From Allacma fusca (lineage: Eukaryota > Arthropoda > Collembola > Symphypleona > Sminthuridae), in NCBI GenBank assembly GCA_947179485.1, contig OX359250.1, positions 25,430,654 to 25,494,653 of the forward strand: a stretch of 64,000 nucleotides of DNA. The letters run 5' to 3'. The notes beneath the pieces are model-generated. The model was given only the letters and a program-made list of their open reading frames with translations, did no database searches and was not told where the DNA came from. The translations under genes and the position numbers were made by a program. Shown in pieces: positions 17,752 to 47,491 of the stretch. Numbering within the stretch: the stretch's first letter is position 1; the number at the start of each line of letters is the position of its first letter.

Positions 17752-17937
17752 TGTTGGTAGCAGAATTGTAAAAAGGAATTGTGAGGAAATCCATTGGGAA
17801 TAAAGAGAGAAGGAAATCTCCAGAGCTCTTTAAGATCCTGATTGACAAACTGAACTGAAGCCAGTCCGTGTACTTTTTGCATCTCATCCCTCGACGACTT
17901 TTAAATGGATCAGCTTTGGCAATATAGGAATGAGCCA
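17752..17937 (-). CDS. Candidate internal exon upstream of the Ser-rich gene
   Basis: A 186 bp minus-strand stretch, open in one frame (61 full codons), bounded by a strong acceptor (ATTTATTTCAG|TG) and a strong donor (CAACA|GTAAGTAAG). It starts with two and ends with one base of split codons. That end phase fits an acceptor near 16760 (CTCAG|AA) from which the frame is open into the start of the Ser-rich protein. The translation includes a hydrophobic patch (FLLSLFPMDFLTIPF). It is not recognised as a domain; a distant resemblance to an S3-like segment of cyclic-nucleotide-gated channels was considered and cannot be supported. The same exon exists at 49535-49720. Confidence 0.4.
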
Positions 17938-22512: not shown

Positions 22513-23224
22513 TGTTACGTCCCAATTCGCACACCTGAGGAACGTGACAAAAGACGGAGGCTACGTGACAAAAGATCGCGTGATGTCACGTTAGCAGAAA
22601 ATAAAAGACCACGTCCACAGAACTCAAAAGGAAGATTTAACCTTTTGGAGCATTCAGCAATTCCACTCAGCAGTTTCTGAGAGAAGAACGAATAAAGAGT
22701 GGAATGCAAAATCCATTAACACCAATTCAATCTATTGTTATTACAAACAATAATTATGATGATTGTGTTAAAATGTAATTATGTACATACTATGTAAATA
22801 GTCCTAGACAAAATCTTTAGATTAAGTCAAGCAAGAAGAGACAGTAAGTTCTTGGGAGGCACTCGTATGGTTCGGATCAAAGCTCGCGTTACAGATCCGT
22901 ATCCATTACAGCCCCTGCCCAAGGCTTGAAGATTCACAGCCATGCGGAGAATTATATTGGGAAAAGATCCTTGGATCCCAATATAATTCATAGAGACTTC
23001 CCATGGAGGAATTTCAACACGGAAGATTTATTTTAAGATCCTTTTATCAATTCAAGTTTATTTTATCTTTGATTTCAATTAGAATAAATTAATACAAGAT
23101 TATTATTCAGTATAAACTTATTTTTAGCCAACGATTATTTTATTATCATCAAAAATACTACACATCATTACTCGACTCGTTCCGAACTTGGGCACGAGAT
23201 TTAACATCCAATAATCTCGTTACA
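22513..23224 (+). repeat. 5' LTR
   Basis: It starts TGTTACG and matches the 3' LTR exactly through 23212. The right end is placed at TTACA (23224), where a CA end is found, but this is uncertain because the 3' copy diverges after 23212. Signals inside: a 13 bp direct repeat ACGTGACAAAAGA at 22542 and 22563; TGATGTCACG, a bZIP-like word; ATAAAAG at 22601, a weak TATA candidate; AATAAA at 22691 and 23083, polyadenylation candidates; and a strong splice donor ACA|GTAAGT at 22843/22844. No convincing primer-binding site starting with TGG directly follows. Confidence 0.9.
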
Positions 23225-25691
23225 TGCTGTTTCTGCCAGGCCTCCAATTTTCGGGGAAAATTTGGAGGGTCCCGAACCCTGGGATGAGTCCGAGTCAAGA
23301 AAATCACAGAGATTTTTGAGACTTAATTTAAGACCGATGGTACTATACTATAGTACGGACTACACACAGTATGTACATAAGACCAGCCCACGCTTGAGTT
23401 TCAATAGACGAGACTTACAAGCTGGAGAATTTCGAGAAATTTCAACAAAATCCTGTGGACTTAAGAACTTTTTCACGGAAAAACTGGGTATACTCATAGA
23501 ACTATAGAGTTAACCAGTCAACGGAATTTTCGAGACCATCCATGGATATTCTCACGAGTACGATAGATGTTACTTACATAGATCCAGTAAGCAGGATTCA
23601 GACTTAGATCATTTTGTGGTTCCTGAATTACAACTTTACGGAATTATTCCACCCGGAATGAGATTTCTGATCAAGATTTCATCCCGAGTGCAGCTAAATG
23701 ATGTCCATTTCCAACCGGAAATTCTGGAAGGAAGGCGTCAACAAAAGCTAAGTATCGAATTACTATATTTTTGCGATTAAAAATTTTTTAGGTGCATAAA
23801 AATACAGGGTATACCGAAAATTTTACGAGAAATATTTTAGTTTTGGAAGTCATGACCCAGACTTAGATTTTTTTTTCATAGGTTCAAATTTTAGTAGTGA
23901 GTACGTGTATTCTTCTCAAACAATGTCGACATCTATTCCTATCTTTTTAGAAATCGGAAGGGCCGAGGCAGTGAGCACCGATATAAAGTGTTTGTGTGTA
24001 CTGTATATTTTACTTTCCTTAGGCCATTTCTTTGGATAAAGGAATAGTTTAGTGTTTCTCTTTATGTAAGGAAGAATTAACAGACGGAATTGATAGTTTT
24101 TCCTGTGGCTTAGAAATAAAGTACGTTTTCTGAGTGAATTTTCGTGATGCGTTTAACGCGCGGAAATTTCTTTACAACTCTTTATAAATTATTCTTCACT
24201 CAACAAGCGAAGGACTGCTGTTAGAGCATTTGGAACTTTTCCAAAATTTTAGTTAGAGTTTAGTAGCTGAAATCTAAACTCAATAAGGACTCTATCATTT
24301 TTCTTTTACACTAAACTCTACTCGTATCGAGGTACTGATACGGGGTGATTCGCAAATCCATGTCGAAGTACTGACATATTAGGATTAAAATTTTACTGAA
24401 TGAACCGAAGTACTGTGTTCAGGAGGCATTTGTTTATTCTTCGATTTTGAAAATTTATAATCCGAAGTACTGGATTCAATAAGGTTTTAGAATTTATTCC
24501 AAAGGTTTTCGTAGTTTTAGGGTTGGAAGGGCCGCATATGAGCGCCAACATTGTCGTGTTAATTTTAGCGTCTGGTAAGGTATCTCCAGTAGGAACGATT
24601 TTTCCTATAGGTAAAAATTAGAAGGAACAATGTTGTGATATAAAGGAATTTATTATAGCATATCTTTTAACAATTTTTATTGGAATATCGGATTTTTCTG
24701 AAACGCCGACAGCAAGCAACAATACGCCTAGATCCTGTTAGAGGTAATTGTAGAGGCTACAAGTGAGCGCAGAATTTTAGGTTTTTGTTTTTGCCCGACC
24801 CTAGGCGAGTTGGTAACATAGTTCAATACCCGAAGGTTTGGAGGGCTAGGAAACTAGCTAGGATAACAGGGGCCGCGGATCCAAGTCACGGAGACGCCTC
24901 TTTAAAACCATAATTAACCATGCTAGGTACGAGTGGTATTTATGGGACTTTCATTTTTCTATATGTTCTTCTAACATAACCGGTAATTGGTTATATAAGT
25001 TAGCCACCACGAAGGAACTCGCAGTAGTAGAAGTGAGTAGGCATAAGCAACCACGGAGCTGGTTTAGGGAAAACTTAGGACACCACTAATTAGTGACTTT
25101 AATTTTTGGGAGATCGCGTATGCTTATAGTCTTTGGTAAGAACAGGCTTATTTCAAGGAATAGCTTAGGGTTTTAGAACACAATTTTGTCTAAAGGACCT
25201 GACAAATTTGGAGCGGATACAGTCCTGATTGAAATAGAGAGATTTCATTTTAGGAGTATTAGGGACAATTTAGGCTACACCCAATCAAGTGACTGGAGAA
25301 GGTGTAGATAGAGTTTAAGGATAAAAAGGACGTAGGATTTAAAATAGAGTTTCAGCAAATGATAGGTTAAACAAAAGTTAATTTTAAGAGCAGGTATATC
25401 CTTCGCTGGGTTATGCGTAGGGATACCACAACACGGTTTGAGTTCATGTAAAAGTTAGTAAAGACAGAATTTTTCAGAAACCCTCTCAATTCTGAGAAAA
25501 ACAAATTTTACAAAGGTACTACATTTTGCGCACCTCTCTCACCAACATCTTAGGGAAAGGCAAGCGCATACATTCCCACATAACATCACCAGGGAATAAA
25601 AGCTAAATTTTCCAAAAAAAACAACATCTTAGGAAAATACAAGCTCATACTTTCAGCTTAGACCACCGGAAGCATTGAAAGTTTATTTCAG
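23225..25691 (+). other. Retroelement 5' leader, probably spliced out of some transcripts
   Basis: A leader of about 2.5 kb with no long open frame. It contains four CGA(A/G)GTACTG words (24328, 24364, 24406, 24463), each with a GTAC palindromic core, and a 33 bp near-repeat (CAACATCTTAGG...) at 25543 and 25622. It ends in a strong splice acceptor, GTTTATTTCAG, at 25690-25691, five bases before the gag ATG. With the donor at 22844 in the LTR this defines a ~2.8 kb leader intron. Spliced RNA would bring the gag start close to the cap, while unspliced RNA would keep any packaging signal. Confidence 0.5.
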
Positions 25692-25696
25692 AGGTC

Positions 25697-28600
25697 ATGC
25701 CCAACAAAGGTAAGAATGACCCACAGGAGCGACATCCCAATACGCTCCAGGCTAGGACCAACACAAGATCAGCAGGTCCAGTCGCCGAAAATGAGGAGAC
25801 CTTGGATGAATTAAATGCAAGAATACGGAGAGAACGAAGAGAAGAAAGAAGAAGGGACCGTGAGAATAGATCCAATACTCACGATTCCGAACTTTCAACT
25901 CTACCATCTGAAAACTCCAGCAGTTTTTCCCAGTCCGTTATAGTTGGTGAAAATACCGACACTAGACCGCGTGGACATAATGGGAATGAAGAGTCAATCC
26001 ATCCAGAGGCAACGTCCTCAACCCATGATGACCTAACAGACCGCGACCAGGTTATCATGGAAGAAATTCATTCGGCAGAAAACGCAAAAGAAGAGGGAGA
26101 TTCCGAAGAAGAAGTCCTAGGAGAATTCATGAAAAATGCTGCAGGAGAAGTAATTTTTGTTACTAGTCAAGCAGGTTCAATTATCAAGGACAAAGATAGC
26201 CCAGCTACTAGTTCAGACATGGAAAGGATTCCGGATAACGCAGACAAAACGATGGACAGCGATGATGAGCTGGAAGAAGATACAAGGGAACTTACACCGG
26301 ATGTCATTCCACCAGATACATTGGCAAATCCAGTCAATACTACGGAGAATGATTTACAGCAAGTAACTGAAAACATCCCATCTCCAGAGAGATTAGCTGA
26401 TCCAACCCAAGAGACTACTCAACCTCTATCACCAGAGAAGACAAAATCGCCTAACGCACCAACAACCCCACAAGAAGACATAGGGGATGAACACACCAGG
26501 GAAATAGTTGCAGAAGATAACCAAGCAAGTGGTAGTAGTCCTTATACGGAACAGCGTAGACCAAGCCTATGGGATGAAGTAGCACAAGCAGAATATTTTG
26601 CAAACACCGGAAACCAAGTTCCAGTACCACCAACCGACCATAGCCAGCAAGCATCAGCTGTTGACCAGCATTCCAGCACCGACATTCCACCGGTAACAAC
26701 CACGCAGACTAGACAGAGAAGCCCAGACAGACTTGAAAACTTAGAAGCATTGACAGGATCGCAATTCATATTGACGGACCTCGGAACACACAATTTAGAA
26801 GCCTTTTCAGGTATAACTGACGGTGTTAATAATTCCGAAGAGACCGTAACGGAATTATACACAAATACCAGGATTTCGGAAACATCCCAACAACAACGAA
26901 CCGAGCGTAGAGAGAGCGAAAACGCAATACGAGGACTAGCTCAAGAAGGACAATTCGAATTTGAAGCTGACATATCAGTCGTACATGACATTTTGGCTAG
27001 AATTTCGGATGCAAGAAGGAATTCACGGTCAAATTTTTTAGAAATCGACCGACTAGACGCCCAGTGGCTCAGCGTACGACACATTACTGCCAATTCAAGA
27101 CACATAGGAAGAGTGCAGTGGTCACACCTTTTCTTTAGGATTGCCCTTGGAATCTACGAAAGAGAAACCAATCGTAGACCAGGCGAACAAATAATAACCA
27201 CCTTATGGGAAAGAGCTGAGGAACAAGCAAGAGACCTTGAACAAAACGTGGAAGTCTCAACGGATGTAATCCAACATTTATTGGAGAGAAGATTTTTATC
27301 AATTCGCAGTAGGTCAGGAGTTACGGATGAACAGATATTTTTCAACGATAGAAGACCGTACATTACAGTAGTCAACCCCAGAAATCCAGACAGGGATCGG
27401 AGATCACGACTTCGAAGACGAAGAAGGAATAGTCCCGAAGACGTACGACAACCCGAACAATCAGAACGCCAAGGTACAGAAGGTACTGCAACCACAACTG
27501 TACAAACATCAACAACTGAAGTAAATCCAAGACCAAGATTTTTGAGACCAATCTATAGTAACTCACCTACAACAGGTCGCCAAATAATAACAGACCACGT
27601 GCGGCGATATTTAGAAAGTCAACAACAACTTAGAGATTTAACGAGCAGAGGCTCACGTTTGGAACAAGATTTATCACAATTACCAAGGTTACGACCCACC
27701 ATCACCCGAAGGGAAATTACATCCACGAACAGCACTCCGACTATTTCAGAAGCTAGTAGTACAAGACCCTCACCTACTACTAACACCCCAAGTAAAGCAC
27801 CGGCAGTTACGCCACGCAAGATTATTTCGCAAAAAAGTCAACAGAATTCTCAGCCAAGTCCAGACACACAACAACCGTCAACGTCAACTCAAGTGACATC
27901 TCGAATTCAACGGACATTGGAAACAACTCCAGAACACCGACCCGTAGTCAGACCTACCAATTTACAGACCAGATTAGCAACCCATCCGGAAGTAGAAACC
28001 CCGGATGAGACACAACCATCGACGGTTACAATAGGGACTTCACCAATCAGAACAGCTCGACAAGAAGCGGTAGCAACGAGACTCTATAGAGAACGAGAAG
28101 TCGTTCAAGACAACACTCATACTATTAGACCACAGCAAGTCTACCAATCACCAGGAGGTCGAGTATACATACATCCACCTCTACATAATCTGCAAGCTGA
28201 AGAAAGAACCGTCACCTTCCCGGAACTACAACAACTCGTGGAAGCCGGAAGAAATACCCGACGACGGGCAGGTTCAGAGACAACAATTAGAACCCTCCGA
28301 AACGCAGATACCGGAACATATTTCCAAGCTCCTACCAATTCAGAACAGATCACGGTCTATCAATCACCAAACGGATCAGTATTCAACAGTCCACCAACAG
28401 GAAGAAGAGGTATCTATAGGGTACTAGCAAATGCAAGAGAATTATTACGAAGATTAGCCCGAGGGGATAGAACGCGGATACCCGGAGGGACGTTAATCAC
28501 CGAACCGGATGAAGAGCAACAACCACCCGATAACGAAACCGAAGTACAGGTTGCACCCGTAAGTCAGCCAATACCTATCCCAGCACCAACTAATATACCT

Positions 28601-31600
28601 CCAAATACCCAAAGTACCACAAGGGTAGTTACGAATTTAACTGGAGCCACCGCAAGACAACCCGTGCAGGTATTTCCACCAACCAACCCAGATCACGAAT
28701 TCCCAGGCAATTCACCAAGACGACCTGGAAGATCATTTAGAGACAATTGGGCGAACACCAGATATACGGTAAGAATAGCACCAGACGGATCAGTTCACAC
28801 ACCATCATCTCCAAGCGTCCGACCCAACTTTGAAGAACGATCAGTTACCACCAGGGAACTTATTAATCTCTCAAGAAATCAACAGAGACTAATAGACGAA
28901 CAGAGACAAGCAGCTATAGATGCAATCTGGACAAACAACGTGAGAAGATTAATCTGGTTAGATATTGAAGAAGGATTAGTTCACAGAGAACCACCCACAC
29001 ACGTACAACGCCAATTCACTGCAAGCCCAGTAACAAGGTTCGAATACGAAAATATCGTCACAAGTGCTAATCAGAGCGCAGCTTTTTACCGATTATTAGG
29101 AAGCAGACTAGGAGATCCAGATTTCGTAACGATCTTCTATAACAACGGTAGAAGAATCAGATACCGGAATATTAATTACAGACACGGTATACGGGACGCT
29201 CAACCAACAGCAAGACAGCTAGTGAGCATATTGGAGCAAGAAGATCATTACGAAGCATTGTTACAACTTCTTCAAGAAGAACAACATAACGAATATAGCT
29301 TTGACGATGCAGAGCGAATAAGCGACGATAGCTTAGCAGAGGAAAGTCCAGCATCACCGGATTCTCCGTTATCACCCGGACCGCAATTAAATCCACAATT
29401 TAGTGACGATAGCCTAAACCGGGAATTTAACCATTTTTACGTAGTCATAGACAACGAAGGATTCTTCTCGCAGGAATTTACAGCAGACAGATATATTTTC
29501 CCACTAAGCCATAACGACGTTATTCAAGCAACAGCCAACGTTATTCAGAGACTTGGACTAAGCCAAGGTTACATCCACCTGAGAGACGATAGGAGAGTCG
29601 GATACCGAATACCCAGATTTCAAATACAGGATTTACCGGAAGAAGTCCGAGAACAAGTCCAGAAACATCTTGACAGATTAGCAGAAATACGAGAAAGAGA
29701 TAACGGTAATACCGGACCCAACAATCCATCCTCTAGAAGGGACCCACCAACTGGAGGAGCAGGAGCAAGTGCAAGTTCAAGAGGTCAACAAAGCAGAGGA
29801 GGTTCTAATTCTTCCCGAGGAAGGCAACCTACCAACAGAGGAGGCAGCCGAGGAGGAAGAGCGGGAAGAGCAGGAAGTAGACAACGTGCTAGTCAAGATC
29901 CAGAAGATCCATCATCATCATCTTCATCATCATCCACTTCATCCACATCATCTTCATCACCAAGTAATAGCTCCAACGCACGTGAAGAACCACGTCGAAA
30001 TAATCACAGACGTAACAGAAACCAACAGCAAAACAACCAACAAGATAACCAAGTGGGAAATCCTCAAAGACCTCAGGGCAGACAAAGAGTACGAGTACAA
30101 TTAGTAGCACAAATCGAATACGAACCATTAGACGACATGGCAGCTCTATTTATGACAAAGGTGGAATTTAAGCCATCACAAGATGACCCAGTACTGGCAA
30201 TAGAACAGGCAGAACTCCAAGCAATCAGATTTGGAGCAGCTCAGACACCAGAGGCAAAGTTGAGATACATAACTTTGATCTTTGACTCACCAGTACGGGA
30301 CTGGATTACAAATTGGATAGCCGAAAGACGGGCAGAAGAAGAAGCTCCCTATGATAACATAGAATGGGAGGACTTCAGAGCAGATTTTATCCGACGGTAC
30401 CAAATTACACCGCAGGTACTACGGACCATAATGGAAAAACGAGTGATGAAATCGGATGAAGATCCATCCACCTATATTGATGCAAAGCTCAGCCTGATCA
30501 ATAGAGTAGACATTAACATGCCAGAGGAAGAAAAATTGAGACTCATTCGCATAGGATTCTCAAAAGAATATCAAGTACAGTGCAGAGGATGGGAATTATA
30601 TACGGTCCCAGCACTACAAGAATGGGCAAAGAAGTATAATGACGATAGAAGAGCTGATGGAGGAGAATCAATGGAAGCAAGATTAGAGAAGATGCAGAAT
30701 ATGATGGAAGAAATGATGAAGAAATCTACGGCAGTAACTACCTTCGAGAAATTAGCAGTGATGAACACTACTTCAGAATTCAAGCAACCGGAACCAAGAT
30801 CTCAAGACTATAGAGGACAGAGTCCAGGAAGAAGAAATTTTGACAATAACAGACCACCAAGTCCGGGGAACCAAAATAGAAACTACAACGGAGGCAACAG
30901 GGATTTCAGAAATCAAAGTAGGAACCCGACGCCTGAAAGAAACCAAGGTTACAACAATAACGGGTATAGAGGAAGATCGCCAACACCAGACCGAGGATAC
31001 AATAATCAAGGCCAAGACAGAGGACGCCAACAATATCGGAACGATTATAGACCCAATAATAATCAACAGTACGATAACAGAGGCAGAAGTCCAGGCCGAG
31101 GTTATAATCAAGGATTTAACAACTATCAGAATCAAGGCCAATATAATAACGGATTCAATCCAGGACCTAACCAAGGATACAATAACAATCCAGGTTGGAA
31201 CCAACAAGGCTATAATCAACAAAATTATAATCAAGGGTACAATCAACAAGGATTCAACCCTGGATACAATAACAACCAGGGATACTACAATAACAACCCT
31301 GGATATAATAACAACCCTGGATACAATAACAACCAGGGATACTACAACAATAACCAAGGATACAACAACAATCAAGGATACAACCAAGGCTACAATAATA
31401 ATGGCCGAAGTAGGAGTAACTCCAGAGACGGAAACCAGAGGAACAGATCTGGAGGAAGAGGCTACAACAATGACTACCGTCAAAATAATCAACAACAGCA
31501 AATCCAGCCAAATAATGAAGGTCAATTGGCCATCGAACCTCCACAAAGAGATCAATCTTGCTTTAACTGTGGAGAGCCGGGACATCAGGCACGAAATTGC

Positions 31601-31666
31601 CAAAAGAAACGCCGGTCAAGTCCACATCCTTCGGGAAACCCACAGAGGGGGATGCACCCCCAATAA
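25697..31666 (+). CDS. gag: Gag-like structural polyprotein, unusually long
   Basis: Capsid/nucleocapsid precursor that should assemble the cytoplasmic particle and bind the element RNA. 1989 residues, against a few hundred in typical Ty3/Gypsy Gags. The first ~1480 residues are polar and low-complexity, with three related ~40-residue modules beginning VYQSP-G (about 815, 887) and VRIAPDG (about 1025). An S-rich run lies near 1410. A folded helical region at about 1481-1660 looks like the retrotransposon Gag capsid domain. A region rich in N, G, Y and Q (about 1720-1905) of GYNNN repeats is prion-like. A CCHC zinc knuckle (C1955, C1958, H1963, C1968) lies at the C-terminus. The ATG at 25697 follows a strong splice acceptor. 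The 3' end overlaps pol with a -1 frameshift signal. Confidence 0.9.
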   Translation: MPNKGKNDPQERHPNTLQARTNTRSAGPVAENEETLDELNARIRRERREERRRDRENRSNTHDSELSTLPSENSSSFSQSVIVGENTDTRPRGHNGNEESIHPEATSSTHDDLTDRDQVIMEEIHSAENAKEEGDSEEEVLGEFMKNAAGEVIFVTSQAGSIIKDKDSPATSSDMERIPDNADKTMDSDDELEEDTRELTPDVIPPDTLANPVNTTENDLQQVTENIPSPERLADPTQETTQPLSPEKTKSPNAPTTPQEDIGDEHTREIVAEDNQASGSSPYTEQRRPSLWDEVAQAEYFANTGNQVPVPPTDHSQQASAVDQHSSTDIPPVTTTQTRQRSPDRLENLEALTGSQFILTDLGTHNLEAFSGITDGVNNSEETVTELYTNTRISETSQQQRTERRESENAIRGLAQEGQFEFEADISVVHDILARISDARRNSRSNFLEIDRLDAQWLSVRHITANSRHIGRVQWSHLFFRIALGIYERETNRRPGEQIITTLWERAEEQARDLEQNVEVSTDVIQHLLERRFLSIRSRSGVTDEQIFFNDRRPYITVVNPRNPDRDRRSRLRRRRRNSPEDVRQPEQSERQGTEGTATTTVQTSTTEVNPRPRFLRPIYSNSPTTGRQIITDHVRRYLESQQQLRDLTSRGSRLEQDLSQLPRLRPTITRREITSTNSTPTISEASSTRPSPTTNTPSKAPAVTPRKIISQKSQQNSQPSPDTQQPSTSTQVTSRIQRTLETTPEHRPVVRPTNLQTRLATHPEVETPDETQPSTVTIGTSPIRTARQEAVATRLYREREVVQDNTHTIRPQQVYQSPGGRVYIHPPLHNLQAEERTVTFPELQQLVEAGRNTRRRAGSETTIRTLRNADTGTYFQAPTNSEQITVYQSPNGSVFNSPPTGRRGIYRVLANARELLRRLARGDRTRIPGGTLITEPDEEQQPPDNETEVQVAPVSQPIPIPAPTNIPPNTQSTTRVVTNLTGATARQPVQVFPPTNPDHEFPGNSPRRPGRSFRDNWANTRYTVRIAPDGSVHTPSSPSVRPNFEERSVTTRELINLSRNQQRLIDEQRQAAIDAIWTNNVRRLIWLDIEEGLVHREPPTHVQRQFTASPVTRFEYENIVTSANQSAAFYRLLGSRLGDPDFVTIFYNNGRRIRYRNINYRHGIRDAQPTARQLVSILEQEDHYEALLQLLQEEQHNEYSFDDAERISDDSLAEESPASPDSPLSPGPQLNPQFSDDSLNREFNHFYVVIDNEGFFSQEFTADRYIFPLSHNDVIQATANVIQRLGLSQGYIHLRDDRRVGYRIPRFQIQDLPEEVREQVQKHLDRLAEIRERDNGNTGPNNPSSRRDPPTGGAGASASSRGQQSRGGSNSSRGRQPTNRGGSRGGRAGRAGSRQRASQDPEDPSSSSSSSSTSSTSSSSPSNSSNAREEPRRNNHRRNRNQQQNNQQDNQVGNPQRPQGRQRVRVQLVAQIEYEPLDDMAALFMTKVEFKPSQDDPVLAIEQAELQAIRFGAAQTPEAKLRYITLIFDSPVRDWITNWIAERRAEEEAPYDNIEWEDFRADFIRRYQITPQVLRTIMEKRVMKSDEDPSTYIDAKLSLINRVDINMPEEEKLRLIRIGFSKEYQVQCRGWELYTVPALQEWAKKYNDDRRADGGESMEARLEKMQNMMEEMMKKSTAVTTFEKLAVMNTTSEFKQPEPRSQDYRGQSPGRRNFDNNRPPSPGNQNRNYNGGNRDFRNQSRNPTPERNQGYNNNGYRGRSPTPDRGYNNQGQDRGRQQYRNDYRPNNNQQYDNRGRSPGRGYNQGFNNYQNQGQYNNGFNPGPNQGYNNNPGWNQQGYNQQNYNQGYNQQGFNPGYNNNQGYYNNNPGYNNNPGYNNNQGYYNNNQGYNNNQGYNQGYNNNGRSRSNSRDGNQRNRSGGRGYNNDYRQNNQQQQIQPNNEGQLAIEPPQRDQSCFNCGEPGHQARNCQKKRRSSPHPSGNPQRGMHPQ

Positions 31667-38325: not shown

Positions 38326-38573
38326 ACTTCTATTATCTGCACCATATTTTGAAGTGTTCAGATCCATATCAACTTCAGCCGCGGAAATATTCAGTGGGAG
38401 AAGTAATCAGACTTTCAACAACTCGTTATTACGACGGTTCCAGAAGGAAAAGAGTTAAGCATATTGGACCATTTTTTATTGACCAAGTTTTTGCCGACAA
38501 GATCTTCAAAGTCACCCGTCTAGATGGATCCAAACGATCAGCAATCATCTACATATCAAACAGCAAGGAATGA
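38322..38573 (+). CDS. Small GPY/F-like module protein
   Basis: 83 residues. The ATG overlaps the pol stop as ATGA, a layout that can allow termination-reinitiation. The translation from about residue 24 (VGEVIRL...GPFFIDQVF...IFKV) resembles the C-terminal GPY/F module of the element's own integrase (SVRVFTP...GPFKVIEVL...YIIQD), with GPF at 49-51. It therefore looks like a second, detached copy of an integrase C-terminal SH3-like domain. Its 3' end overlaps the start of ORF3 in another frame. Whether it is translated alone or spliced to something is unknown. Confidence 0.5.
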   Translation: MNFYYLHHILKCSDPYQLQPRKYSVGEVIRLSTTRYYDGSRRKRVKHIGPFFIDQVFADKIFKVTRLDGSKRSAIIYISNSKE

Positions 38574-41500
38574 GTCACATAATTCCTCAGAGGAGGATGA
38601 CGACTCAAGACGACCCTTATACTGGAAACAGTATGTAAGTACTACAGAGATTCCACAACCAACATCAAAACTTATTCCCAACATGGACACCCATCGTTTG
38701 GAGGCAGTAACCAGCCTAGATGGAAGAATTGGAAATAGAATTATCATCAGAACGGAACAAAAGAATGAAGTCATCTGTCATTCATTTTTCATCGGAGCAC
38801 TACAGAAAACTGGTGCCATTTCTAACTACGACTACAGAGTGTTGAAAAGAGACCCTTACTATTGCGGCTCCGTAAATTTTGCGGAAGAGGAGAAAGAAAT
38901 TCGGGAAGGAAAGAGAGTCCCGGATGATATGGTATTTCTATTCAAAGACCAACCTTTTGAGCCCACAAAGATAAATGAAGTGGCAATACCAGCCAGTAAT
39001 AGAAACCGTCAACCTGAAGACCCATGGAAAATTGTTCCCTTCAAAGGAGAAAGGGAAGTGTCAACAATTATGCCACCCTGTACCGATTTTTTGAGGACTC
39101 CATGGGCCACGTCACCAGAATTGGATGACGAAAGACAACCGTACACAGTAAACTCAGCCAAAAGAATTTTTACAGCCGACCCAGCATGTAAACTCACGAA
39201 GAAACGATTACATGGAGTAAGTGACTGGGGACCGGAAGACAAACCAGCCAAATTACCAGCCACTGTCACATCTGACAAACCTGACAAAGAACAAGATTTC
39301 AAGTTTGTACAGCCTGTGGCAGTAGGAAGAGGAGCACGGAGAGAGACGAGGAAAGATAATCGTCATGAAGATCGAGAACCTGGCAGTTCTAGATACAGTT
39401 CCAGAGACCGCCAAAATTCCAAAGAGGAACGATCTAGAAAAACGGAAGAAGTTTCATCCCATACACCCAAAAGGATGAGATCGAGAGAAAGTACGCCACC
39501 CAGAATAGAAACTGTCACAAGTAGCAGTAGACATAGAGACACTTACTATTATCAAAGACGAAGGTCACCTGCAAGACATTATGAACGCAGTGGCCACAGG
39601 TCAAATGAGGAGGATAGACGACGCAGCCGAAATTCACCTGTCAGGAGTAGAAGTACGGAAAGACAATCCATACTTACTCCACCCATTGACACAGCCAAGG
39701 CCAGCTATAACGCGGTAACTTTTCACACCAAAAAAATCCTAAAGAGGCCCACCACACCTCCACGAAGCGAGAGGCCGTGCAGCCCTAAGGACTCCAACCG
39801 TGGGGACGAAAAACCCCTACCACAAAGAGAGGCCAAGGCTGAACAACAGAGGCGAGGCGAACAACCTTTCACATCCACATCAACTACCCCAACAAAGAAT
39901 AGCACAATAGGACCCAACACAGCACGTGTAGAGCCAACTATACAATCCACACCTCAAACGCCAATACAGCCAGCCATGGAAGTTAATGTTGTACAGATAG
40001 AAGATGCCAAAGGAAAAAAGGCTACTTCTCTGGATATCATATTAACAACTCCGGGAAATCGGAAAGAATCACAACCACCTCAGGCGATAGTACATCAGCC
40101 AGTTTCACCAGAAGTCATGATCATCGAAAATGAGTCACCTCAACAATCAAATACACAAAGCCCAGGGTCCACTACAGATACATCAACAGTCAGCTCAGAA
40201 GCAGAAGTTGAGATCGTGAAGCAGATTAGCTACATCAAATGTACTCATGCCAAATGCAAAAGGACCCGACATATCCCCATGAATTTGACAGATCCTCAAC
40301 CGAAGAATGGTGAATGCGAGCACCACATGAAAAAGCGCATAAAGACCGAAAAATTAGTTAGAAAGAAAGCCGAGGGACCTAAGACCGAGGCAGAAATGGA
40401 AACCATTCTACCAACACTAGACCCATTACAACGAGCAATCCATATTTTGGATTTGGATTCAAAGCGACAATCTCACTACGACGAAATTGTTCGCAACCTA
40501 CAACGAGACAGTTTATCTATTTTATTTGCAACCCACAATGGAAAGGACCCAGCCATTTTTAAGGAAATGCGAGACTATGCACAAGAACAATTGCATAAGA
40601 TACGTATTGATTGGAGAGCATGGAGAATTAAACATAATTTTCCAGCCGTATGTACTCTACTGGGAATTAACCCCGACACAAGGAAATTCCCCGATATGCC
40701 AATGGAAGCAAACCAACCCCCGGAAATGACAACACCAGAGCCATCGCAAGGACCATATCAATGCACGGGAGCGACTGGAACCGAAGTCCAGCCACCCACA
40801 GGGGAGAAGGAGCTACTCACCCTTAATAGCAACGTCAACATAACTCAAGTATTTAAAACCCAAACCGAACTGGAGAGAGCTATCACTCCACTTTTAACTG
40901 ACGAGATAGCAACAGAATTGGAAAAATACTTGGAACCAACTCAACTACACCAACAAATAGAATCTTCATCTTTATCGGATTTTGCTACACCACCTCATGA
41001 CATTTCCTTAAGTATGGATACGGAAGAGTTACCAATAACTCCCAGCCCACCACGGGATGATCACTCTCCACCCAGAGGAGGAGGAGGACGCGGAGGACCG
41101 ATTCCAGCCATAGGATATAACTTTTTCACATTTATGTTACTCATGGGAGTAGTAACAATGGGATTAGGAATGACACCAACTACACGTTTGCCAGGACCCG
41201 TCACCACCAACAATTATTTACACGGACGGGAAGGATTTAATCGTCTAATGAAATCGTTCAATGAGACCGCGAAACATGACGATTTCACATGTAATAGTAT
41301 GGAACGACACCGCAGACTTCACACAAGGGATAGTGAGCCGCCACCTCACAATTTTGGAGAAAATGTGAGACCTTTCTTTTCCAATTGGATTCAAAGATTC
41401 AAAGAATCCGATACAGCAAAAGGATGCGCCACCATGGCAGCTATAGCATTAACTTGGACTATCATGACAATGAGTTATGTTTTACAATATTGGAAGCCCA

Positions 41501-44500
41501 CATGCGGACAGAGAGCAGTCATTCCAGATGATTGGATTATGGTTAAATACGAACTTGAAGACGGAAGACCAATGTGGATTACACTTCCTATTGACACAGC
41601 CAGTGTGATGGAACTGGAAAATAACCTTAATATCCAAGTTCCAATCACAACCACAACAACAACTACATCATCACCCTACGTGCGGAAAACCATTTCGGTC
41701 AGAACAAGAAGACAGGCTGAATGGTTAACAAGCTCATCTATTTCTCAACTATGGAATAAAGCTATTTATGTACAAGGAGAAAATCACCAAGAGCATCAAC
41801 TACAAGAAGTTGACACACCCAGTGGAATTTTGATGTTTTCACGAGTCATGCGTGACGGATGGAAACTTTCACCTCATAAACTATTCCAGTTATTTGACAT
41901 ACTACAACAATACACTCTACCTGGTATTTTTACTAAGAATAAGGTGGAGACCTTAGAAAAAGCAGTCGATAAAGGTATCAATGAACACCTAGGATCAAGC
42001 TTAAAGATTATACTAGGATATCAACCACACAATAACAGGACCAAAAGAAGTATTATCCCAAGGGAGGATTTGTCAAAGATCCAAAGACAAATCCAAGATG
42101 ACCCTCATAGCCTAACCACGGGAGAAGATTTCACACATCCTGATAGGGAAATTTTGGACGGAGAATTAGTTTTCTTCAACACCGCTATTACCATCCATGA
42201 GGCAAATATGACAGTTGCAATTTTACTACCCATGATTTATAAGGGAGTAAATCACATCGAAGCAGATACATTCAATAAATGGGAAACTGATGCACAAGTG
42301 ACAGCATTCAATCAACGCAGACTTTTTCGTCGAACCACCATCGTTGAGGGCAACGAGCTTCCCAGAGGGGAGGAGGAGACACATCTACGACGAAAAAGAG
42401 AAGCTTTCCTTGGACCAGACAACTCATGGACACCCATTGAGTACAACCACAAATTTATCAGAAAACAACTGGAATTATTAAGAGCAATGGAGAAAGAGAG
42501 CGGCGAATCATCAGCAGCACCCAGAAACACAGGCATACTACAAGGCCTTACAAGATTCATCTTTAGAACCTTGTTGTACATAGGTACAGCATTCGCAATA
42601 GACGAGACAAAGAATCCACAAGGAATTCTGAAAGAAACTCCACCAAACACTGATGTCGAAGCCACACCGGAGGAAAGAGAGCTGAACACACCTACGCCAT
42701 CAGCACCTCCAGAAGAGGAACGACCATCATCATCAGCATTGACACAAGTAAATCAACCTAAACCAAAGAAGGAGAAAGCTAAGGCAAGAAAGAAAGCTAG
42801 ACGACCATCCTTCATAAACTTAGACTGTCCAAGCTTAGATGTTATGAAAAAGGGAGAAGAGATGTTTGGATTCCTTGCCAGAGTAAACAGAGAGGCAGGA
42901 TGGGATCCACCATTAACACCCGAAATGCTATGTGGAAATCCAACAGAATGCACCTCAGGAACACTTCCAAACGAGGAGAAAGAACAATCAGAAAGCGAAA
43001 TAGAGGAGGAACAACTAAGGGAAGACATAGAGAAAGCTATGAAAGCATCTGAGGAAGAGAGAGAAGTACGAGAACAAGAAAGATTAGTTGAACTACAAAG
43101 GGACACCATTCGAAGATTCCAAAGGGGATACGATTTCGATACTAGACCCAATTCTCGAAACGCTACCCCACCTGAAGAAAGGGACCTTACTATAACACGG
43201 ATCGACATTTCGCATCCACAATACATCCGAAGTGGAAGCGAGCTTATTGTACTACATCGACCCGACTCAGTTACACAAGCTACAATCTTTCAAAACGTCG
43301 AATCACCATTCGCAATAGGAAGAGCCGAACGAAGTGCACAAAACGAAAGGGGACTTTCACCAGAGCAAAGACGACAATGCTTTCGTGATCGAAGTCCAGC
43401 CGAAGGAGCGCAGAGACACCTAAGAAATATGATGAGAGACCATTCACCCGATTGGAGGAACGAAAGCAGACCATATTGGACCGAAAGACCACAATGCAGA
43501 GTATGTAAAGGACACGGAGTATTGCCAATGATGGACAAATGCAAAAATTGCCAAGATATACCAAGCAGAGACCCAAGACAGTTTCCATGCATACGTAAAC
43601 CAGATAATGATGGGATGAGAGCAAATAGTCTTTTCCAATGGACACATCGGATGCACATGGAAACCATAGAGGCCAGAATTGCAAGGAAAAAGGTGAAGGA
43701 AAACAAACATCCCAAATTCAAACTTGAACAACTACAAGAAATGTTAAAACAAGCACAGAACCTACCACAAAGAGAGACTTTCTCTTATGAAGAAAACATG
43801 TTCGAGGCTGACACAGAGACTCGACAGGAAACTATCAGAGAAAGGCGAATGTTAATACAGGAGGCGATGGATCACCCTACTGAATTTCAAGCAGTAGCAC
43901 CAGCAGAACGAGACCTTGCCATCATCTACCGTCAAGCACGGAGACGAATATCTTTTACAGACTCAAGAATGGAGACATTAGCAACAGACTTAACTATTCA
44001 CCCAGGCGAAATGATAGCACAATTATGGGACACTCTATACCGTTCCCTAAAAGCAAACGAAGGAACGACAATTCCAGAGCAATTACTATGCCGAGAACAT
44101 CACGGTACTTTTCAAGGATTAACCGGAACAGAAGTAAGGCGATTACTCATTCACATATGGAATGACATAGGATTGGAACCCAGTTGGGGAGAACAAGCTC
44201 TGTGGATGGAGTCATTTATCCACCGTGGAGCGCCTATAACAGGACGACCCGAGACAGGCTTACAGATGTTAGCAGATTTACCAGCAGATCAACTTTCTTT
44301 TGGAGAATTTCAACCCATGGCACAGCGCCTCATCATTCTATACAAGCAAAGAGCGGCTATAGAAAAATGGAAGGAATGGACAGGAGAATCCATAAGATCA
44401 GAAGGGGAATCTTCACCCATTGCGGAAATTTTAGACGAGATAGAACAATGGGAAGAGTGGATTTTCGACCTATACAGTGCTACCATCAAAATCTACCCAG

Positions 44501-45126
44501 CTACACTTCACGTAGAGAATCCAGAAGGGATTTTGTTTTCAATCCGAAAACCACAGCATAAACTGTTTATAGAACATTTGAACGAGCTGAACATCATCTA
44601 TTGTTGGAGACAAGAACGCTTCAGCCGACTGACCCGAGCAGTCGAAGCATTACATCAAAGCCGAACAACTCCAGCAAGAGTACGAGACATGCAAGTAGAC
44701 TACATACCAGGCACAACGCAACTATCATTAGTCAGGCAGACAATCCGATTGAACTTAGCAGAAACATGGAGTTCAATAGTAATAGAGGTACCAGCTAACC
44801 CTGACGACATACTCAGCACCTTATTTAACCTCAAGAGATTACCACAGTCCGAAATAATAATACGAGACCCTGAAAATCAATTATTAGAAGGACGAAGAGA
44901 AACCGATCCTATCACCCCAACACAATTTTATGTTTCACAACTAGCCTTATCGAATGATGAAGAATTCAACAGATTCGTGGAGGAAATGAATCTGAAAAGA
45001 AAGTACAACATAAAATCGGGATTGGGAACATCGGAACCTAGACTCATCATCATCAGTTTTAGGAAGTTACCCCAGAAGAAGGGCGATACATCTTCCCTGA
45101 CAAAAGATCCACCTGTCAGGCAATAA
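38524..45126 (+). CDS. ORF3: 2200-residue protein of unknown function, env-like middle part
   Basis: It lies where env genes sit in retroviruses, but no family was recognised. In order: an ordered N-terminal region (about 25-170); an Arg/Ser-rich region (about 280-385) like RS domains; a possible C-x4-C-x19-C-x-H site (573-600); hydrophobic segments at about 866-883, 969-989 and 1345-1359; three dibasic motifs of furin type, RTRR (1060-1063), RTKR (1172-1175) and RRKR (1289-1292); N-glycosylation sequons near them (NRT, NMT); a long charged coil region; a zinc ribbon C1658-x2-C1661-x11-C1673-x2-C1676; and an ordered C-terminal region. The middle suggests a membrane glycoprotein precursor, while the ends suggest nuclear or RNA-binding roles, so it may be cleaved into several proteins. 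How it is translated is not evident. Confidence 0.75.
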   Translation: MDPNDQQSSTYQTARNESHNSSEEDDDSRRPLYWKQYVSTTEIPQPTSKLIPNMDTHRLEAVTSLDGRIGNRIIIRTEQKNEVICHSFFIGALQKTGAISNYDYRVLKRDPYYCGSVNFAEEEKEIREGKRVPDDMVFLFKDQPFEPTKINEVAIPASNRNRQPEDPWKIVPFKGEREVSTIMPPCTDFLRTPWATSPELDDERQPYTVNSAKRIFTADPACKLTKKRLHGVSDWGPEDKPAKLPATVTSDKPDKEQDFKFVQPVAVGRGARRETRKDNRHEDREPGSSRYSSRDRQNSKEERSRKTEEVSSHTPKRMRSRESTPPRIETVTSSSRHRDTYYYQRRRSPARHYERSGHRSNEEDRRRSRNSPVRSRSTERQSILTPPIDTAKASYNAVTFHTKKILKRPTTPPRSERPCSPKDSNRGDEKPLPQREAKAEQQRRGEQPFTSTSTTPTKNSTIGPNTARVEPTIQSTPQTPIQPAMEVNVVQIEDAKGKKATSLDIILTTPGNRKESQPPQAIVHQPVSPEVMIIENESPQQSNTQSPGSTTDTSTVSSEAEVEIVKQISYIKCTHAKCKRTRHIPMNLTDPQPKNGECEHHMKKRIKTEKLVRKKAEGPKTEAEMETILPTLDPLQRAIHILDLDSKRQSHYDEIVRNLQRDSLSILFATHNGKDPAIFKEMRDYAQEQLHKIRIDWRAWRIKHNFPAVCTLLGINPDTRKFPDMPMEANQPPEMTTPEPSQGPYQCTGATGTEVQPPTGEKELLTLNSNVNITQVFKTQTELERAITPLLTDEIATELEKYLEPTQLHQQIESSSLSDFATPPHDISLSMDTEELPITPSPPRDDHSPPRGGGGRGGPIPAIGYNFFTFMLLMGVVTMGLGMTPTTRLPGPVTTNNYLHGREGFNRLMKSFNETAKHDDFTCNSMERHRRLHTRDSEPPPHNFGENVRPFFSNWIQRFKESDTAKGCATMAAIALTWTIMTMSYVLQYWKPTCGQRAVIPDDWIMVKYELEDGRPMWITLPIDTASVMELENNLNIQVPITTTTTTTSSPYVRKTISVRTRRQAEWLTSSSISQLWNKAIYVQGENHQEHQLQEVDTPSGILMFSRVMRDGWKLSPHKLFQLFDILQQYTLPGIFTKNKVETLEKAVDKGINEHLGSSLKIILGYQPHNNRTKRSIIPREDLSKIQRQIQDDPHSLTTGEDFTHPDREILDGELVFFNTAITIHEANMTVAILLPMIYKGVNHIEADTFNKWETDAQVTAFNQRRLFRRTTIVEGNELPRGEEETHLRRKREAFLGPDNSWTPIEYNHKFIRKQLELLRAMEKESGESSAAPRNTGILQGLTRFIFRTLLYIGTAFAIDETKNPQGILKETPPNTDVEATPEERELNTPTPSAPPEEERPSSSALTQVNQPKPKKEKAKARKKARRPSFINLDCPSLDVMKKGEEMFGFLARVNREAGWDPPLTPEMLCGNPTECTSGTLPNEEKEQSESEIEEEQLREDIEKAMKASEEEREVREQERLVELQRDTIRRFQRGYDFDTRPNSRNATPPEERDLTITRIDISHPQYIRSGSELIVLHRPDSVTQATIFQNVESPFAIGRAERSAQNERGLSPEQRRQCFRDRSPAEGAQRHLRNMMRDHSPDWRNESRPYWTERPQCRVCKGHGVLPMMDKCKNCQDIPSRDPRQFPCIRKPDNDGMRANSLFQWTHRMHMETIEARIARKKVKENKHPKFKLEQLQEMLKQAQNLPQRETFSYEENMFEADTETRQETIRERRMLIQEAMDHPTEFQAVAPAERDLAIIYRQARRRISFTDSRMETLATDLTIHPGEMIAQLWDTLYRSLKANEGTTIPEQLLCREHHGTFQGLTGTEVRRLLIHIWNDIGLEPSWGEQALWMESFIHRGAPITGRPETGLQMLADLPADQLSFGEFQPMAQRLIILYKQRAAIEKWKEWTGESIRSEGESSPIAEILDEIEQWEEWIFDLYSATIKIYPATLHVENPEGILFSIRKPQHKLFIEHLNELNIIYCWRQERFSRLTRAVEALHQSRTTPARVRDMQVDYIPGTTQLSLVRQTIRLNLAETWSSIVIEVPANPDDILSTLFNLKRLPQSEIIIRDPENQLLEGRRETDPITPTQFYVSQLALSNDEEFNRFVEEMNLKRKYNIKSGLGTSEPRLIIISFRKLPQKKGDTSSLTKDPPVRQ

Positions 45127-45751
45127 AATTCATTACATCAACAGAAATTACGGTCAGACTATTTAATACAATCTTAATAGTCAAAATAGGAGAGAGAGAA
45201 AGAGCAGATAACGAACCTTTACGGGGAGCTCTATGAAGGAATGCAAATTCCAGAGAGCAAGAATTTCGCGTCAGCATTTTATAACAATAGAATGCAGATC
45301 ACGAAACCAAAACAACTGACATTTACTCCTAATCAGCCATTGGGGATTCCGGAGGATTAGAGAGGAATGGCAGTATAACAGAATATAGGATAAGCATAAA
45401 ATCAAATAAAAAGAAATACATAATAAGAAAACAATACAAAAAGAACAAAGCTAACATAATTTTGTTTATAGTTTACTTTTAGATTATCACCACCGGAAGA
45501 GTATGGAGATTAAATTCGGACCAACATCCCTTTATTAAGTAAATCTTGCAAAAGACTCGTAATTGTTTACATTCTCTATTGTTCTAAACAATCAAGACCA
45601 TCCAGTATAAAAGGAAAGCTCCAGGATCAGGCTGGACACAGTCAACTCACAACCAGTCCCTGGACTCCAAACACTGGAAAATCAAAATCTATTGTTGCAA
45701 CGATTACAAATTGTCAGAAACTCATAATCAAAGAAAACATAGATTTGAGTA
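45127..45751 (+). other. Non-coding spacer between ORF3 and ORF4
   Basis: 625 bp without a long frame. It holds the internal TATA box listed below and a possible splice acceptor (ACAAATTGTCAG, about 45715) upstream of ORF4, so ORF4 could be made from an internal promoter or from a spliced RNA. Confidence 0.5.
45606..45641 (+). promoter_or_regulatory. Candidate internal core promoter for ORF4
   Basis: TATAAAAG at 45606-45613 is a consensus TATA box. CACAGTC about 30 bases downstream (around 45637-45643) is a reasonable initiator. The ORF4 ATG follows about 110 bases later. Retroelements normally transcribe from the LTR, so a consensus TATA placed just before the last gene suggests a separate short mRNA. 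Confidence 0.5.
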
Positions 45752-46501
45752 ATGACACTTAGACTTTTCATTCTGTACATCACCATAACTCTCGCGGTTG
45801 TGGAAACTGAAGGACGTCCAGTTCCGAATCCTGAACCCATTGGACCAGTAGTTCAAGCGGGACTCACTACCATCGGAGCATGGATCGCAAAATACGTAGT
45901 ACCACCCATGTTAGTAGGCTCTACAGCTATAACCGCCACCCATTTGTCACAAAAAGATCCTGTTGTGCATTTATTACATCCAGGCAACAATGGACAAATG
46001 GCTGTTGTACCTTACGACCCACAAGATGCAAACGTGATAGCTGCTCAACAACAAAACCAATTGCAGCTCCAAAATCAAATGCAGCTACAACAACAACAGT
46101 TACTACCAAGACCACAAATAAACCAACAAACAAATCCTTCTATAGACGAAGTTGACTTTAACAGATATCCACCTTGGTTACAAAAATACGCACAAGACGT
46201 AGGAGACACCTGGATTCCACCACCACCAACCGAAAACAGCAATATCACTATCATCATCCTTAGCAGCTTTGGAATATTCATCCTAATAGCTATCATCAGC
46301 CTTAGTGCCTATTATTGTCGAATAATAGCTCGTAGACCAATACCGGAATCAAGACATGAATACCAAGAATTGAAGAGGATTACAGCACCGGATACCGCAA
46401 CAGTAGTTCAGAACAGTTTCGAACGTTTAGTAGGATGTAAATTAGTACGAGCATCACCCACGCCAGGGCCATCAACCGCAAGGTTACCCGCCCGACCATA
46501 G
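45752..46501 (+). CDS. ORF4: small type I membrane protein, possibly env-like
   Basis: 249 residues. A signal peptide (about 1-21), then an ectodomain with a Gly/Ala/Val-rich hydrophobic stretch (about 31-60), a Gln-rich run (about 97-118) and an N-glycosylation sequon (NIT, 164). One transmembrane helix (about 165-188) ends in Cys, followed by a basic cytoplasmic tail with a YQEL motif that could act as an endocytosis signal. There are no furin site and no heptad-rich stalk, so it is not a standard fusion protein. It might be an accessory surface protein. Position after ORF3 and before the polypurine tract fits an env-type gene; the function is unassigned. Confidence 0.7.
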   Translation: MTLRLFILYITITLAVVETEGRPVPNPEPIGPVVQAGLTTIGAWIAKYVVPPMLVGSTAITATHLSQKDPVVHLLHPGNNGQMAVVPYDPQDANVIAAQQQNQLQLQNQMQLQQQQLLPRPQINQQTNPSIDEVDFNRYPPWLQKYAQDVGDTWIPPPPTENSNITIIILSSFGIFILIAIISLSAYYCRIIARRPIPESRHEYQELKRITAPDTATVVQNSFERLVGCKLVRASPTPGPSTARLPARP

Positions 46502-46777
46502 GAGTCCGAATTTAATGCCCAGAAAACCAAAAGGAGAGAACTTACGCTTAAAACCAAATTGTATAAAGTAGTATGTAAGAAAACACAACTTGTGATACAC
46601 ATAGCTCACAAGCTAACACAAACACCTACATGTAGTTCACAGATAAGTTTATAGATAATAGGAACCACAATCATAAAAAGAATGTAAATACTTGAGACAA
46701 TCTAATCATGTACATAAGGTTTAGCTGATCTAACATCCTTATGCAGTCGAGAAGACGGCTGAGGACAGCCTACCGAC
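46502..46777 (+). other. Retroelement 3' untranslated region
   Basis: About 276 bp between ORF4 and the polypurine tract. No open frame or recognisable motif. Confidence 0.6.
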
Positions 46778-46787
46778 AGAAGAGGAA
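46778..46787 (+). other. Polypurine tract (plus-strand primer)
   Basis: AGAAGAGGAA directly abuts the TGTTACG start of the 3' LTR, the position and composition expected of the RNase H-resistant primer for plus-strand DNA synthesis. It also fixes the 3' LTR start. Confidence 0.9.
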
Positions 46788-47491
46788 TGTTACGTCCCAA
46801 TTCGCACACCTGAGGAACGTGACAAAAGACGGAGGCTACGTGACAAAAGATCGCGTGATGTCACGTTAGCAGAAAATAAAAGACCACGTCCACAGAACTC
46901 AAAAGGAAGATTTAACCTTTTGGAGCATTCAGCAATTCCACTCAGCAGTTTCTGAGAGAAGAACGAATAAAGAGTGGAATGCAAAATCCATTAACACCAA
47001 TTCAATCTATTGTTATTACAAACAATAATTATGATGATTGTGTTAAAATGTAATTATGTACATACTATGTAAATAGTCCTAGACAAAATCTTTAGATTAA
47101 GTCAAGCAAGAAGAGACAGTAAGTTCTTGGGAGGCACTCGTATGGTTCGGATCAAAGCTCGCGTTACAGATCCGTATCCATTACAGCCCCTGCCCAAGGC
47201 TTGAAGATTCACAGCCATGCGGAGAATTATATTGGGAAAAGATCCTTGGATCCCAATATAATTCATAGAGACTTCCCATGGAGGAATTTCAACACGGAAG
47301 ATTTATTTTAAGATCCTTTTATCAATTCAAGTTTATTTTATCTTTGATTTCAATTAGAATAAATTAATACAAGATTATTATTCAGTATAAACTTATTTTT
47401 AGCCAACGATTATTTTATTATCATCAAAAATACTACACATCATTACTCGACTCGTTCCGAACTTGGGCACGAGATTTAACATCCAATTAAC
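46788..47491 (+). repeat. 3' LTR, right end altered or truncated
   Basis: Identical to the 5' LTR from its first base through 47487 (700 bp). The 5' copy then continues AATCTCGTTACA, whereas here only TAAC precedes the start of repeat copy 2 at 47492. TAACA would be an exact inverted match to the TGTTA start, so this may be a genuine end, or an end trimmed and refilled during joining. It should supply the polyadenylation signal for element transcripts. Confidence 0.9.

Follow-up and report, generated by a model that had tools for sequence, protein, structure and literature searches.

A giant, probably autonomous Ty3/Gypsy-type element with extra genes 3′ of pol in the springtail Allacma fusca

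Giant Gypsy-type elements are already in print, with Burro exceeding 30 kb and Ogre reaching up to 25 kb (as described in PMC6431247). Here, we describe a long terminal repeat (LTR) element of the springtail Allacma fusca, located at positions 22513–47491 of a 64,000-nt stretch of contig C9 (the whole of which is called "the window"). The element had first been noticed in a reading of the DNA letters alone (the original prediction), which overlooked the published giant Ty3/Gypsy elements. We conclude, with a probability of roughly 0.86, that the window copy is a giant, probably autonomous, and recently mobile Ty3/Gypsy-type LTR element whose extra genes (ORF-X, ORF3, and ORF4, all located 3′ of pol) are under selection. 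The Allacma lineage differs from the known giants in its host, its layout, and its extra genes.

Burro, from planarians, resembles the Allacma element in being a giant gypsy-like element of an invertebrate, with an internal region of >20 kb, extra coding sequence, and many copies, but differs in its size (>30 kb), in a 4,873-aa ORF1 that carries env-like sequence in one frame with gag and pol, between the two, and in the presence of MATH, BIR, and BCL2-like motifs (according to the description in PMC6431247). The Allacma element, by comparison, has LTRs of 0.7 kb, separate gag and pol frames with a −1 frameshift signal, and its extra genes 3′ of pol. No Burro-type env was encountered between gag and pol, where the gag zinc knuckle and the protease (PR) adjoin across overlapping frames, and Pfam searches found no MATH, BIR, BCL2, ubiquitin-like, or dUTPase domain in gag, pol, or ORF4 (E to 0.1), or in ORF3 (E to 10), although remote forms are possible. 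Ogre elements of dicot plants are likewise of the Ty3/Gypsy type and up to 25 kb long, but are described as owing their size largely to LTRs of 1.9–6.5 kb, with an internal region of 11–13 kb (PMC6431247). In contrast, the LTRs of the Allacma element measure 711–715 bp, short of the long LTRs of Ogre, and the stretch from the start of gag to the end of ORF4 spans 20.8 kb. The gypsy elements/errantiviruses of insects share with the Allacma element a gag gene, a pol gene expressed by frameshifting, a third gene 3′ of pol, and AT-rich 4-bp targets. Their Env, of a known fusion-protein kind, consists of one protein of about 500 aa, whereas the Allacma ORF3 encodes 2200 aa without a match. Lastly, Cer1 of Caenorhabditis elegans is an LTR element whose accessory gene, CERV, is likewise large and non-enzymatic. 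CERV differs in comprising 517 aa and in being expressed from a spliced RNA with exons in common with gag, a comparison made by description only (PMC10309623). No title in the literature covered, which did not extend to subscription journals or preprints, names a giant springtail element.

All features of the window element lie on the forward (+) strand. The 5′ LTR (22513–23224; 712 bp) begins with TGTTACG and ends with CTCGTTACA, its true 3′ end having been set from other copies, while the 3′ LTR (46788–47487) is missing its last 12 nt; by direct comparison, 22513–23212 and 46788–47487 are identical at 700/700 positions. Directly 3′ of the 5′ LTR is a primer-binding-site candidate (23225–23243; TGCTGTTTCTGCCAGG...), which may resemble the 3′ end of a tRNA-Val. 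This candidate starts with TGG in family C and in two copies of family A, to which the window copy belongs, and with TGA in family B (families B and C are introduced below). A search for self-priming by an LTR complement gave no match of >8 nt. The 2.5-kb leader (23225–25696) contains no listed open reading frame (ORF) of ≥150 aa. It is followed by an uninterrupted gag (25697–31666; 1989 aa), whose N-terminal part is long, acidic, and hydrophobic-poor, and which has one CCHC knuckle (aa 1954–1970; Pfam). The Gln/Asn/Tyr/Gly-rich end that precedes the knuckle contains tandem repeats with a 57-bp unit (window 31255–31383). The pol frame (31597–38325; 2242 codons, open from 31567) is also uninterrupted and, counting from codon 31597, encodes PR (aa 65–165), reverse transcriptase (RT; aa 356–640), RNase H (aa 641–800), an insert of ~590 aa, integrase (IN; aa 1390–1765), and a hydrophobic-poor tail. 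Then follow ORF-X (38322–38573; 83 aa), ORF3 (38524–45126; 2200 aa), and ORF4 (45752–46501; 249 aa), the latter two uninterrupted, and a polypurine tract (46778–46787; AGAAGAGGAA) that abuts the 3′ LTR and also precedes the 3′ LTR in other copies.

The assignment of the element stands, as judged from its domains, its motifs, and its nearest solved RT, which is that of Ty3 (E 2.8e-105). Pfam matches to pol comprise protease, RT, RNase H, H2C2, and p58_C, with the integrase core below its cut-off, and the domain order is PR-RT-RNase H-IN. The motifs DTGA (PR), YLDD (RT), and HHCC (IN) are present, as is the catalytic D-35-E spacing of IN, the 35 residues having been counted by hand on the printed sequence. 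The LTR ends (TG...CA), the polypurine tract, and 4-bp target duplications fit Ty3/Gypsy (Metaviridae), although the window copy itself has no duplication. In a large protein search with pol and ORF3 as the queries, pol was matched best by a gene model from a pseudoscorpion (42% across 479 aa of the RT-RNase H region). The same two queries found no relative when run against viral contigs, and a hydropathy scan of gag and pol found no membrane segment above threshold.

Most of what the original prediction had claimed about the anatomy was borne out: LTRs identical over 700 bp, intact gag, pol, ORF3, and ORF4, a full set of catalytic motifs (those listed above, with RNase H and the gag CCHC), a Ty3/Gypsy identity, and coordinates that proved correct within 4 nt. 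It had attributed about 9 kb to sequence beyond gag-pol; indeed, 8.5 kb separates the pol stop from the 3′ LTR, but gag-pol (12.6 kb) is long in itself, so that the extra genes account for part of the size of the element, not all. The term "near-pristine" suits the genes, but not the aberrant 3′ end, and ORF-X, the frameshift signal, and the 3′ junction with its 6.8-kb host duplication had all gone unnoticed.

The frameshift signal (31633–31661) lies in the overlap of gag and pol and consists of GGGAAAC in frame, a 7-nt spacer, and a GGGGG-N5-CCCCC stem; the pol frame read after the shift would extend from 31640 to 38325. Since such an in-frame heptamer was found in 103 of 1,957 100-nt windows of gag, the heptamer alone could arise by chance at about 5%. 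The same combination of heptamer, spacer, and stem was, however, found in one copy of family B, whose gag is only 35% identical. We envisage an element that would be transcribed from its LTR and translated into Gag and, via −1 frameshifting at GGGAAAC, Gag-Pol. Reverse transcription would be primed at the tRNA-type primer site and integration would occur at ATAT, while ORF-X, ORF3, and ORF4 are probably expressed from spliced or re-initiated RNAs.

Evidence for recent mobility came from the other copies in the A. fusca genome. We searched 392,743,791 bases in 91 contigs; the published assembly of 392.8 Mb is derived from one male (PMC10427803). A query with the LTR gave 40 scored matches out of 102 candidates, 38 of which form 19 pairs, with two unpaired. 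The count of copies and comparison of LTR pairs that the original prediction had proposed thus yielded 19 pairs; the spacing is 24,021–24,355 nt (24.0–24.4 kb) in 16 of them and 23,342, 33,691, and 17,952 nt in the other three. The best 30 LTR loci, which were fetched, include 14 pairs, and omission of the window pair and of C1:8112621/8130573 leaves 12 canonical pairs. The LTR ends with CTCGTTACA and is 711–715 bp long in 28 of the 30 fetched loci, the exceptions being the window 3′ LTR and L005. All 12 canonical pairs are flanked by 4-bp target duplications (10 ATAT, one GTAT, and one ATAC). Over the first 711 nt, seven of the 12 have no LTR mismatch and the other five have 1–3. Family A therefore moved recently, in agreement with the recently active lineage that had been predicted; the insertions are left undated, as we know of no mutation rate for springtails.

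The genes of family A have likewise been kept open. ORF3 is stop-free in 20 of 21 scored rows, which are 96–100% identical (the best 21 of 666 candidates), pol in 18 of 22 rows (14 of them full-length as well), gag in 20 of 24 main rows (separate N-terminal rows contain stops in 2 of 23), and ORF4 in 35 of the 36 rows that match at ≥78% over nearly the full length. When these lists were compared side by side, at least 12 loci, including the window, had all four frames open. Family A comprises many intact copies. Deletion derivatives are also present; L038 and L039, for example, have kept ORF4 with no ORF3 match in the preceding 6 kb, and L039 retains part of gag and pol.

Comparison of copies reveals purifying selection on ORF3, ORF4, and ORF-X within family A. 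For ORF3, the ratio of non-synonymous to synonymous substitutions (dN/dS; Nei-Gojobori) was 0.111 and 0.114 between the window and two other copies and 0.139 between those two, and ranged from 0.047 to 0.204 across eight 275-codon windows of one pair. The corresponding ratio of proportions (pN/pS) for ORF4 relative to the window was 0.10–0.23 in all 10 fetched copies. ORF-X has an open frame in all 10 fetched copies. Where it does not overlap ORF3, these copies together show 26 synonymous and 9 non-synonymous differences, giving a pN/pS of 0.11; the corresponding values for the other frames were 0.70 and 4.6. The copies compared share ancestry, so these estimates are not independent events. 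At its 5′ end, the ATG of ORF-X and the stop of pol overlap as ATGA; at its 3′ end, ORF-X runs into the start of ORF3 in a different frame. Counterparts are found at the same position in families B and C (B–C, 55%, E 1.5e-34), with A–B and A–C similarity being weak (E about 1e-4). A Pfam search with ORF-X found nothing, and a profile comparison gave a weak match to the C-terminal module of integrase (probability 57%).

Families B and C, which have ORF-X, ORF3, and ORF4 in the same order as family A, came to light through the extra genes. The window ORF4 query returned 105 further rows at 38–45%. At locus L034 on contig C10 (family B), a pol tail is followed by an ORF3 homolog with one stop, which matches at 27–34% over three stretches spanning most of ORF3, and by an ORF4 homolog (40%); upstream of these genes, family B has a gag (35%) and a pol (57.5%, with one stop near the pol end). 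Family C has an ORF3 frame that is open for 2340 codons and matches that of the window at 27–38% and that of B at about 50%. Upstream lie a gag piece and a frame that by eye ends like the B pol tail, the body of pol lying outside the fetched sequence. An ORF4 query from family B gave 110 rows at ≥78% over ≥216 of 240 residues (107 stop-free), and one from family C gave 29 rows at ≥74% over ≥169 of 235 residues (25 stop-free), making 175 ORF4 rows for A, B, and C together, 167 of them stop-free, some of which may be duplicated segments when near-identical. Of 14 further loci, chosen mostly as outliers, 11 contain a frame of >500 codons in the 3.8 kb preceding ORF4, and all 11 of these frames match ORF3.

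The 20.8-kb coding stretch, the short LTRs, the at least 12 intact loci, and the two related families together indicate that the size of the element comes from selected genes, not from filler. Another idea is that ORF3 is a mere passenger that does nothing for the element, having come from a single capture of host DNA or from a chimeric assembly. No ORF3 homolog was found outside the A. fusca genome in the searches made, as a passenger would predict. However, with ORF3 open in 20 of 21 scored copies, dN/dS of 0.11–0.14 in three pairs, and homologs at the same place in B and C, we consider such an origin extremely improbable, and reject both an assembly fusion and a passenger. The original prediction had itself raised the possibilities that ORF3 was fused in only by assembly, or that no other copy carries ORF3 and ORF4 3′ of pol, and neither holds.

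Families A and B are not equally diverged along their length. Between the window (31597–38322) and a family B copy (L061), RT is 87% identical, as compared with 30% for the pol insert, 35% for gag, and about 30% for ORF3. It is possible that genes other than RT evolve very fast, or that pol was exchanged between families A and B. No 3′ LTR was found within 2.2 kb (B) or 2.4 kb (C) after ORF4, in one copy of each. In family B (L034, L035, L099), ≥1.5 kb past ORF4 is shared by two copies (88%), and no LTR was found there. By its sequence, family B is longer than A at the 3′ end and may hold more content there. We also observed that the leaders upstream of gag in B and C are 75% identical over 1.4 kb (L076:3567–5004 vs. 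L078:2297–3734), which suggests a conserved RNA function.

What the extra genes encode can be approached only through their motifs. Profile searches of ORF3 and ORF4, as suggested in the original prediction, found no known family: Pfam gave no match for ORF3 (E to 10) and none naming ORF4 (E to 0.1). Weak matches of the family C ORF4 to transmembrane families were below the cut-offs and were judged to be composition effects. In the large protein search, none of 5,887 candidates matched ORF3 at E 0.001, with only proteins of ~1,210–3,850 aa being detectable, so that short relatives are possible; gag, ORF4, and ORF-X were not among its queries. ORF3 had no match among PDB sequences either. A single-sequence structural model of aa 1665–2200 was useless (mean pLDDT 35.6), and in a model of aa 1001–2200 built from 14 sequences (mean pLDDT 34.3), only ~aa 2061–2180 are mostly >60; no match stood out in a fold search with this low-confidence model, which says nothing about the rest of ORF3. 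As far as these searches reached, ORF-X, ORF3, and ORF4 represent three conserved gene families that have no known relative.

A single hydrophobic segment of ORF3 (aa 863–881) passes the hydropathy threshold, with two more visible by eye near 970–990 and 1340–1360. Downstream are furin-like sites at aa 1172 and 1289, a sequon at 1228, and a conserved region at 1672–2192. Conserved between A and B are an N-terminal domain, an RS-rich stretch, a Cys/His cluster (by eye), and GGG.RGGPIP before the hydrophobic segment, as well as a C-terminal region with CREH.G, for which C was compared over the later part. RT[KR]RSI, the sequon (AN.T), and a basic site (R..R) before AF.GP are conserved in A, B, and C. 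ORF4 has a hydrophobic N-terminus, a conserved KDPVVH region, a membrane segment (aa 165–183), and the tail DTAT.VQNS.E.LVGC. These features suggest that ORF3 is a membrane precursor and ORF4 a small membrane protein; both are most likely membrane-associated accessory proteins, ORF3 being a precursor that a furin-type protease would cleave. The RS-rich part at the ORF3 N-terminus may act on RNA.

Two more specific functions can be weighed against these features. One is that ORF3 is mainly an intracellular accessory factor, active in RNA export or particle assembly like CERV of Cer1. The RS-rich stretch and the Cys/His cluster conserved between A and B speak for such a factor, and CERV, likened by description only, shows that an LTR element can encode one (PMC10309623); conserved furin-like sites, a sequon, and a hydrophobic segment would be unexpected in it, and we regard this function as possible but short of probable. 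The other is that ORF3 and ORF4 form an envelope/egress module, which would make the family an endogenous, retrovirus-like agent that can exit cells. Two furin-like sites and one sequon conserved in all three families, the hydrophobic segment of ORF3, the membrane segment and hydrophobic N-terminus of ORF4, the constraint on both genes, and their place 3′ of pol, where other gypsy-like elements have env as an ORF of its own (as described in PMC6431247), would all suit an envelope. Against it, neither Pfam, PDB sequences, nor the fold search with a low-confidence model gave an Env or fusion-protein match, the first hydrophobic segment comes only after a very long, RS-rich part that looks intracellular, no more than one ORF3 segment exceeds the hydropathy threshold, and a single conserved sequon was noted. 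We think this module somewhat unlikely. It is a speculative and distinctly unlikely proposal that ORF-X, ORF3, and ORF4 together constitute an envelope/egress system, not described before, for the packaging and export of a ~24-kb RNA genome. If true, these families would rank with the largest virus-like agents of arthropods that use reverse transcription, and would still be moving within genomes and perhaps from one genome to another.

Several observations count against the view of a probably autonomous element with selected genes. Open frames were counted among the top-scored candidates only, so that the counts are lower bounds, and each list includes the window copy. In samples picked mostly as outliers, interruptions of ORF3 occur in all six stretches of family B (L034, L062–L065, L075) and in four of eight of family C (it is open in L060, L066, L068, and L071), and the B pol is interrupted once in the sole copy read. 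ORF4 beside the interrupted B and C stretches is mostly open; family B may be older, or ORF3 may be supplied in trans. In addition, ORF3 and ORF4 are without a profile, sequence, or fold match, their putative roles being drawn from motifs only. Finally, the assembly was made from an ultra-low-input library and is not fully phased (as stated in PMC10427803), a point that also favors an artefactual origin of the 3′ junction of the window copy.

That junction is unusual. The left end of the window element is at ATAT, as in other copies, but there is no target duplication, unlike in the 12 of 12 canonical pairs. At the right end, the LTR, shortened by 12 nt, is followed by TAAC (47488–47491) and then by the start of a second copy of host DNA. 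The first copy of this host segment (15709–22512) ends at the ATAT target; the second (47492–54295) is 100% identical over 6,804 nt and ends on the right with the target site empty and uninterrupted. TAACAT recurs 11 nt upstream within the element, as in joints repaired with copied filler. When integrase joins only one viral end and host repair takes care of the other, duplication of host DNA is the commonest outcome reported, often of hundreds or thousands of bases (PMC5041404). The window copy, with one normal end, one abnormal end, and a large host duplication at the latter, matches the anatomy of such a one-ended integration product. Most likely, its 5′ LTR joined normally at ATAT, and the abnormal end was joined to sister DNA 6.8 kb away, duplicating the host segment. 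The window copy may offer a natural instance of such integration accompanied by a large duplication of host DNA. Alternatively, the arrangement of host copy, element, and host copy may be an assembly or amplification artefact that joined an inserted and an empty allele, the true insertion having an ordinary ATAT duplication. The perfect identity of the host copies over 6.8 kb is in keeping with this, and an earlier reference male is described as having extremely low heterozygosity (PMC9630974), so that alleles may look identical; C1:8112609–8135594 likewise joins a shortened copy to a repeated flank. On the other hand, the 12-nt trimming and the TAAC filler with its nearby TAACAT context resemble repair joints, and the same anatomy has been described for one-ended integration of human immunodeficiency virus (HIV) and avian sarcoma-leukosis virus (ASLV) (PMC5041404). 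We consider an artefact a serious possibility, a little short of even odds.

The C1 locus (L031–L033, L020, L024) holds a family A element that is truncated in ORF4 and has a deletion in pol. It is followed by a 99.85% copy of 3.3 kb, which contains the flank and a solo LTR with an ATAT duplication. This arrangement could reflect a tandem duplication plus LTR recombination, or a join.

Outside the element, the window contains a receptor gene on the reverse (−) strand (54875–57337), which was read exon by exon and gives a joined protein of 418 aa with 100% identity to an A. fusca protein (P0078), in support of the host, and, on the same strand at 6067–7576, exons that by eye resemble a cys-loop ligand-gated channel. 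A tandem array of about 21 copies of a 38-bp unit occupies 61224–62008.

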